In this document: piece by piece, positions 29,734 through 31,571 of the stretch
Numbering within the stretch: the first letter of the stretch is position 1
Layout of the letters: every line of letters begins with the position of its first letter
Assembly (NCBI RefSeq): GCF_001886815.1
Contig: NZ_CP018099.1
Location: forward strand, 1,362,501 to 1,426,500
DNA length: 64,000 nt
Origin: Caldithrix abyssi DSM 13497
GTDB lineage: Bacteria > Calditrichota > Calditrichia > Calditrichales > Calditrichaceae
Direction of reading: 5' to 3'
Translations under genes and position numbers: made by a program
Notes under the pieces: generated by a model
The model's input: only the letters and a program-made list of their open reading frames with translations
Databases searched by the model: none
Told to the model about the DNA's origin: nothing

Positions 29734-30084
29734 TTTTGCCTCCCCGTAGAATGGAATTAATTATAGGAATATATCAATCTATTTGGAATAAGTCAATAAA
29801 ATTGATGCTTTTAGGCGGGGAAAATAATATTCTCATAATTGGTCGGCCGATGACGATCATTGAAAAAAAGATGCATGGAGGTTAAAGGCACAATGGCATT
29901 AAAAAAACAAATTAACAAAGCCGTGTGAAGAGGATAACCGCATATCAACTGTCAGAGCCAATGCCGGAGGCCATTGAGGGCAGGTTAAATTCAGAAAATG
30001 GCAAGAGCGCTGTCACAAATATTTAAAATGTGAATCTATAAAAATGAGAATCGATACAAAAAATAGTTACAGGAGGACCTGATC
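29734..30084. other. Intergenic region before the HPF/sigma fusion gene
   Basis: 351 bp. It holds the divergent upstream regions of the cpoB-like gene and the gene at 30085. The only coding hint is an 11-codon frame at 29893. AGGAGG precedes the start at 30085. I could not assign promoters with confidence. Confidence 0.5.
29893..29928 (+). CDS. Possible 11-codon leader peptide
   Basis: ATG at 29893, TGA at 29926-29928, peptide MALKKQINKAV. GGAGG (29877-29881) lies 11 bp upstream. It sits 157 bp before the HPF/sigma fusion gene. It could be a translated leader with a regulatory role or a chance frame. Confidence 0.2.
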   Translation: MALKKQINKAV

Positions 30085-31044
30085 ATGAAGCTGGAAGTGG
30101 TTAAAAGGAACATTGAAACGCTGAGCGAGACGTTTGAGGAGCAGTTGGAGCAGAAGACAAAGAAACTGGAAACGCTTCTTAAAAATTTTAACCCGGATCT
30201 TTGTTTTTTAAAGATCGACCTGCAAGCCGATGAAAAAAACAGAATCTACACCACCTATTTAAAACTTGATTTGCGGAGTAAGGTTTTAAAGGCAAAGAAA
30301 AGCGGGAATACGCTGCAGGCATCGGCTAATGAAGCGTTTAAAGCCTTATTCAGAGAGGTTAAAAAATACAAAGAATTTTTGCGCCGCGAACCGGAGTATC
30401 GCAGAAAGCGATTTGCCGAATCGGCTAAGACCAGTGTTTCGCCCCTGCAATTGGATGAAGGCGTAAAAAGCGTTTACAGCGATTTAATCCAAAGCATTTT
30501 GCATAAACTAATCAACTTTACAAGAAGAGAACTGCTGGCGCGCGATCTTTTTAAAGAAAACGATCCTTCTGGCGCCCTGGTTAAAGAGATCATTGATGAA
30601 GCCATTGCCAATGTGGGATCGGAAATCGGCACCCAGTTCAACAAAAGGGAAGCGCGCCGCAAACTATACAAAGAGATCATAAAAATCATCGATCAAAAAA
30701 TAAAAGGAGAACATAAGCGCCCGCTTTCTCTGGAAAAAGAAGTTTATGAAATAGATGAAGAGAATTTCTTTGAATACTACCAGCCAGATGAAAGCCTGCG
30801 CATGGAGGACATTTTGCCGGGCGTAAAATGGCCCGAAGAGCAGGAAGAATTAAAACTGAGTTTACAGGAAATACTGGAAGAACTACCGGAGGATTTACGG
30901 CAGGCTTTTACCCTGACGCAAATGAACGATTTTTCCTATGAAGAAGTGGCCATGATTCAGGACAAACCTGTCGAACAGATTAAGGAAGAAGTGGAAAAAG
31001 CGCGAAAAATCATCCAGGAAAAATTGACCGTTGACGCGTTGTAA
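30085..31044 (+). CDS. HPF/RaiA-like ribosome-hibernation domain fused to sigma-factor-like regions
   Basis: 319 residues. The N-terminal part (about 1-97) resembles the S30AE/HPF fold: amphipathic helix LEQKTKKLETLLKNF, alternating strands ending in TTYLKLDLRSKVLKAKKSG, then a second helix NEAFKALFREVKKYKEFL. A middle segment (about 135-205) looks like ECF sigma region 2 (ALVKEIIDEAIANV, then REARRKLYKEIIKIIDQK). The C-terminal 50 residues match sigma region 4: LPEDLRQAFTLTQMNDFSYEEVAMI, PVEQIKEEVEKARKII. AGGAGG lies 7 bp before the ATG. A hairpin terminator follows at 31095. A stationary-phase or stress role linking ribosome and transcription is inference only. Confidence 0.72.
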   Translation: MKLEVVKRNIETLSETFEEQLEQKTKKLETLLKNFNPDLCFLKIDLQADEKNRIYTTYLKLDLRSKVLKAKKSGNTLQASANEAFKALFREVKKYKEFLRREPEYRRKRFAESAKTSVSPLQLDEGVKSVYSDLIQSILHKLINFTRRELLARDLFKENDPSGALVKEIIDEAIANVGSEIGTQFNKREARRKLYKEIIKIIDQKIKGEHKRPLSLEKEVYEIDEENFFEYYQPDESLRMEDILPGVKWPEEQEELKLSLQEILEELPEDLRQAFTLTQMNDFSYEEVAMIQDKPVEQIKEEVEKARKIIQEKLTVDAL

Positions 31045-31444: not shown

Positions 31445-31517
<73 letters not shown>

Positions 31518-31571
31518 CTTTTTTATAATCAGTTTTGTGTCTTTAAACTTGCCCTGCAAAATGAGTACTTT

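Follow-up and report, generated by a model that had tools for sequence, protein, structure and literature searches.

What does a bacterium do with a single protein that carries a ribosome-hibernation domain at one end and parts of a sigma factor at the other? The question is raised by a gene of Caldithrix abyssi DSM 13497 found in a 64,000-nucleotide stretch of its genome (the window, in which all positions are numbered). An earlier note, made from the DNA letters alone, had read the first residues of the product as HPF/RaiA, the middle as ECF region 2 and the C-terminus as sigma region 4. It offered two functions for the protein, a sigma factor released from ribosomes or a ribosome factor with a sigma-like HTH for its interaction module. 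It is near certain that one reading frame joins an HPF/RaiA hibernation domain to an ECF-type sigma2-sigma4 module (about residues 125-314). The features of the gene and its product are collected in Table 1.

Table 1. Features of the fusion gene and protein (positions in the window)
Feature	Position	Strand	Basis
Shine-Dalgarno AGGAGG	30071..30076	+	read in sequence
HPF-sigma fusion gene, ATG start, 319 residues	30085..31044	+	single open frame; 35 full-length relatives aligned
HPF/RaiA (S30AE) domain, residues 1-99	30085..30381	+	Pfam; HPF-only profile vs PDB; model and Foldseek
Basic connector helix, residues 100-124	30382..30456	+	family charge; helix continuity in Orf11 model
Sigma2-like domain, residues 125-210, invariant D171	30457..30714	+	TIGR02937; AlgU match; three model helices
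Equivalent of sigma regions 2.3/2.4, residues 198-211	30676..30717	+	ECF Asn and basic cluster lost vs 24 ECF sigmas
Linker motif FFEYYQPDESLRMEDILP, residues about 227-245	30763..30819	+	highest regional conservation; pLDDT below 50
Linker FFEYYQPDESLRMEDILP residues E230, Q233, P234, D235, D242, (nearly) invariant			
Sigma region 4-like domain, residues 257-314, LPxxWRR type	30853..31026	+	Pfam Sigma70_r4_2; sigmaE identity
Former -35 recognition helix PVEQIKEEVEKARKII, residues 295-310, net charge 0	30967..31014	+	comparison with ECF sigmas

Domain architecture of the fusion protein

The N-terminal part was matched by the Pfam family Ribosomal_S30AE at residues 4-99 (E 3.3e-6, 28.2 bits; cut-off 23.7). 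A profile restricted to the HPF segment, prepared from five Calditrichota proteins, matched solved HPFs in the PDB at E 1e-6. In the AlphaFold2 model of the window protein this part has the fold order beta-alpha-beta-beta-beta-alpha, and Foldseek matched the HPF structure 4hei with a TM of 0.84 on the target. Both the S30AE fold and the profile match, which mark HPF/RaiA membership, are present. The helix-2 motif LxRxxxKxK is formed by L88, R90, K94 and K96 and aligns to LERQVRKYK of S. aureus HPF; L88 is kept in 34/35 members of the family alignment, R90 in 31/35 and a Lys or Arg at position 94 in 33/35. On this alignment, the basic helix 2 would face the 30S subunit. The N-terminal fold and the helix-2 motif are thus common to the fusion and to short and long HPF/RaiA (PF02482), whereas the dimerising C-terminal domain of long HPF, PF16321, is absent among the Pfam matches up to E 10 and its place is taken by the sigma module. 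C. abyssi encodes a separate, ordinary short HPF elsewhere in its genome (C1:78990-79262, minus strand), which makes the fusion an additional HPF-type protein there rather than the only one.

In the C-terminal half, Sigma70_r4_2 matched residues 258-308 (E 6.6e-9, 35.7 bits; Pfam cut-off 25.7), and region 4 shares 42% identity with E. coli sigmaE in 2h27 over 62 columns of the Foldseek alignment. The ECF superfamily model TIGR02937 aligned to residues 133-314 with an E of 1e-7 and 31.7 bits, below its NCBIfam cut-off of 42.9, and AlgU was matched over profile positions 168-328. The sigma2 and sigma4 parts are modelled as three plus four helices and follow each other in ECF order. ECF sigmas bound to anti-sigmas, SigW/RsiW and RpoE/NepR, were also matched by Foldseek with a TM of 0.67. 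The window-protein model has a mean pLDDT of 73 and a pTM of 0.47; confidence is good for the HPF and sigma domains and poor for the linker, and the arrangement of the domains is not reliable.

All three domain assignments of the earlier note were therefore borne out, the first by Pfam S30AE, the HPF-only profile and the 4hei match, the last by Sigma70_r4_2 above cut-off, and the middle one by the sub-cut-off TIGR02937 alignment, the AlgU match and the model helices. The S30AE-like fold and the sigma region 4 match, the two features on which that note had staked its reading, were both found. An Rfam scan of the window gave a tRNA-Gly(ccc) shortly 3' of the fusion gene (31445-31518) as the sole match.

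Distribution of the family

Full-length orthologues with 37-76% identity were found in 5 of the 39 other Calditrichota genomes searched (6/40 with C. abyssi), and a scan of 84,980 species genomes identified 30 related loci. Most of these encode all parts of the protein, with 20-31% identity, and belong to the Gamma-, Alpha- and Betaproteobacteria or, in one case, the Actinomycetota; a few are HPF-less or ordinary ECF sigmas. The alignment comprises 35 full-length relatives, drawn from Calditrichota, Pseudomonadota and a single genome of the Actinomycetota. That the architecture is conserved as a whole across all 35, the co-occurrence that the earlier note had proposed to survey, rules out a chance fusion or a frameshift.

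The fusion family is accessory, patchy and horizontally moving. Among the genomes sampled, it occurs in 16 of the 369 from Gammaproteobacteria (known seeds account for at least three), in 4 of 289 from Alphaproteobacteria (one a seed, one without the HPF part) and in 1 of 296 from Actinomycetota, that one being the seed. No relative of the fusion was found in the viral contigs searched. In the tree, where the midpoint root serves for drawing only, the six Calditrichota proteins form one group (100/100), whose sister is a gammaproteobacterial clade (96/88).

Two Calditrichota records deserve a separate mention. A contig titled 'Caldisericaceae bacterium' (L044 / G001:C183) carries a gene 76% identical to that of the window and belongs to a genome placed in the same genus, and its title looks wrong. 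In genome G026, which belongs to the genus of G025, a decayed copy (L042:5900-6582) keeps an open HPF part of 131 aa and has lost the sigma part.

Orf11 of the heat-resistance island

On profile comparison and gene position, the fusion family includes Orf11, an unexplained 'hypothetical protein' encoded by the transmissible heat-resistance island (LHR/TLPQC/tLST), which spreads among E. coli, Klebsiella and other bacteria. Profile-profile comparison of the window-protein and Orf11 families gave a probability of 100% (E 2.7e-44, 325 columns), and a profile from the Orf11 side alone matched both HPF and sigma structures. The Orf11 model (pLDDT 86, pTM 0.75) has its parts in the same order as the window protein; HPFs are its top matches, and its sigma matches are weaker (E 0.045). 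Pfam gave no match in the island copy, and it is through the Calditrichota proteins that the nature of Orf11 becomes visible. The two proteins share the full-length architecture and the linker motif described below and are about 22% identical. Sigma4 is more decayed in Orf11, and of the two genes only that of Orf11 has stress-gene neighbours.

An identical family member in Pantoea, Pseudomonas and others sits between HdeD and thioredoxin. In E. coli G3/10 the gene order is clpK, cls-like, ftsH, hsp20-GI, yfdX1, yfdX, hdeD, the family gene (annotated 'hypothetical protein') and trx-GI, and the family gene overlaps trx by 11 bp. Its position between hdeD-GI and trx-GI identifies this gene as Orf11 of LHR/tLST and as ORF10 of P. 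aeruginosa TLPQC. In published descriptions, Orf11 shares less than 30% identity with any protein whose function is known (PMC8290217), and TLPQC ORF10 of P. aeruginosa is called hypothetical (PMC7685784). Relatives were found on 303 plasmids, mainly of Klebsiella and Enterobacter, and an Agrobacterium plasmid copy annotated 'sigma-70 family' adjoins HdeD, FtsH, an AAA ATPase and thioredoxin. The identical island gene is also present in two metagenome-assembled genomes, Desulfovibrio sp. MES5 (L062) and a Spirochaetia (L064), by recent transfer or binning contamination.

The Pseudomonadota relatives repeatedly adjoin genes of protein quality control, among them Hsp20, ClpG, YfdX, HdeD and PsiE genes. 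Island-type stress genes lie near 16/33 family loci compared with 1/19 loci for ECF sigmas in those genomes (Fisher p 0.002), and a stricter gene set near 12 compared with none (p 0.002). The family loci are related and the stress-neighbour label needs about five changes on the tree, so the independent associations are fewer than 16. Calditrichota and their sister clade have no island-type stress-gene neighbours. Neither the window nor the surroundings of the other intact copies in Calditrichota contain a tLST-type gene, except that a gene near the G025 copy weakly matches thioredoxin, and a stress role for the C. abyssi protein can therefore only be proposed by extension. A non-stress clade (Chromatiales and others), read by eye only, has no common neighbour theme.

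Genetic data on Orf11 come from the island itself. When orf11 was deleted from E. coli MG1655 carrying the island, survival of heat and of chlorine was not reduced and an oxidation read-out stayed unchanged (PMC8407380). In LHR2 islands, orf11 is disrupted by two genes (PMC5383660). With the deletion silent and the LHR2 copy broken, a vital role in acute E. coli survival is unlikely. E. coli has its own HPF, RaiA and RMF, and these could mask a role of orf11.

Apparent loss of promoter recognition in the sigma half

To compare the sigma half with working relatives, 24 ECF sigmas from Calditrichota were aligned with the family; these controls had been selected for their resemblance to the window protein, so any bias is towards it and not away from it. 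The -35 recognition-helix segment has a charge of 0 to -4 in the 35 family members and +2 to +5 in the 24 ECF sigmas, with means of -1.5 and +3.5 and no overlap. The mean charge of the region 2.3/2.4 segment is -0.3 in the family compared with +3.5 in the ECF sigmas, and the region 2.3 Asn present in 24/24 ECF sigmas has been lost. The sigma4 core is kept (P268 in 34/35, R272 in 35/35, a Trp at 271 in 31/35). At the core-contact position of region 2.2, every family member has D171 where the ECFs have Gln; polymerase binding may thus be altered and cannot be assumed.

From these comparisons, the sigma module appears to be DNA-blind, with the promoter-binding surfaces of sigma2.4 and sigma4.2 lost in 35/35, and promoter-specific sigma activity is unlikely. 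The loss fits a DNA-blind binding module better than the released sigma factor of the earlier note. A true ECF sigma factor that is held on idle ribosomes and set free on recovery would agree with the complete sigma2-sigma4 architecture and with region 2.4 of the window protein and its nearest Calditrichota relatives, which is the least decayed of the family (+1 to +4). Against the neutral or acidic recognition helix of all 35 members, the missing Asn and the score under the NCBIfam sigma70-ECF cut-off, such a factor is very improbable. Relative to AlgU, sigmaE and SigW, the fusion keeps the fold and the sigma2-linker-sigma4 order and differs in its lost promoter-binding residues, the EFYQPD in its linker and the HPF in front. 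It is filed here as a variant of the HPF family and not as an ECF sigma, because the defining sigma features, when tested, were not found. The other option of the earlier note, a ribosome factor with a sigma-like interaction module, fits the sequence data as a putative function, so its interpretation stands in part: the three domains and the module hold up, and the release is disfavoured.

A near-invariant linker motif

Neither the linker motif, which is the best-conserved element of the family, nor the Orf11 link to the heat-resistance island was part of the earlier note. The linker between sigma2 and sigma4 carries a near-invariant [FY]-E-[FY]-[YW]-Q-P-D in the 35 full-length relatives, with E230 in 34/35, Q233, P234 and D235 in 35/35 and D242 in 33/35, and reaches 2.99 bits per column compared with 1.3-2.0 elsewhere. 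The motif is predicted to be disordered and lies within a strongly acidic stretch (mean charge -12.5). Being disordered yet nearly invariant, as expected of a binding motif, it suggests a conserved partner. Two HPF-less alphaproteobacterial relatives retain it (P0003 as EFYQPD, P0002 as the variant EWFQPED), which argues that it belongs to the sigma module and not to ribosome docking. Alphaproteobacterial sigma-like proteins that have an EFYQPD-type linker and lack HPF (L069:6001-6600 and L115:7855-8586) are perhaps a sister family.

The motif also bears on an improbable reading in which the protein is an ordinary hibernation factor, its sigma-derived part dimerising, stabilising or regulating HPF with no partner in transcription. 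Charge agrees with this reading: the connector (residues 100-120, family mean +5.5), which runs on from HPF helix 2 without a break in the Orf11 model, is basic together with the HPF (about +10), the linker and its flank are strongly acidic, and the linker could mask the basic HPF surface. Other HPF proteins also carry fused modules, namely long HPF and archaeal HibA with CBS domains (PMC13324472). HibA likewise joins HPF/RaiA to an unrelated module, and differs from the fusion in partner module, domain order and lineage (PMC13324472). Left unexplained are the joint keeping of both sigma domains with the sigma linker position and the retention of the motif by HPF-less relatives.

The main rival, likewise unlikely, takes PhyR, the sigma-like anti-sigma antagonist, as its model: the sigma module would bind an anti-sigma, and the real stress sigma would be freed once the protein leaves the ribosome, or vice versa. 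A DNA-blind sigma4-like domain is common to PhyR and the fusion, and PF22233 scored above cut-off in 4/6 Calditrichota members, the window protein not among them. The window-protein model also resembles sigma factors in complex with anti-sigmas. In G025, a 78-residue zf-HC2 anti-sigma-like gene (L038:6309-6545; 33.8 bits, cut-off 22.2) follows the fusion gene at a distance of 18 bp downstream. Such a gene lies beside this one intact member and the decayed G026 remnant only, where it has lost one cysteine, and none adjoins the window gene or the island copies. PhyR has a receiver domain where the fusion has HPF, and a mobile gene would have to meet a fitting anti-sigma in each host. In a search for a general anti-sigma partnership, a Cys-His pattern beside 33 family loci was found in G025 alone (the pattern misses the decayed G026 copy). 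A neighbouring cognate anti-sigma is not universal among ECF sigmas.

Proposed function

An HPF domain occupies the decoding and mRNA sites of a ribosome that is idle. A sigma factor binds RNA polymerase through sigma2 and sigma4, which contact the clamp and flap, and its linker passes through polymerase channels. We favour, with a probability of roughly 0.55, a ribosome-binding HPF whose DNA-blind sigma module is used as a binding arm. In the ancestral step, an ECF sigma factor would have been fused to HPF and promoter recognition lost afterwards. The fusion protein is likely to bind ribosomes, and its HPF part would dock in the decoding/mRNA channel of 30S subunits left idle. The sigma module would serve as an arm for a widely conserved partner, as is argued by the presence of the gene on mobile islands in many hosts. 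Core RNA polymerase is our best guess for that partner, offered tentatively. The sigma fold might then rest on the clamp helices and flap of the core enzyme and the acidic EFYQPD linker in the channel used by sigma linkers, and one protein could park or co-localise ribosome and polymerase under stress. More speculative is a single-protein brake on gene expression under stress, in which HPF holds the ribosome while the promoter-blind sigma part, with EFYQPD as an acidic plug, occupies core RNA polymerase, Orf11 acting likewise.

Coordinated hibernation of both machines has a precedent in Rsd and RMF of E. coli (PMC6134199). Neither an HPF-sigma fusion nor the nature of Orf11 was found described in a search of openly licensed papers, and a survey of bacterial HPF fusions names no sigma fusion in the accessible part of its text (PMC13324472). 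If the single-protein brake is true, the coupling achieved in E. coli by separate proteins of the Rsd/RMF type would be physically combined in one protein, which would be a new route. The family link gives Orf11 a domain identity, and hence a testable function, in an island of clinical and food relevance.
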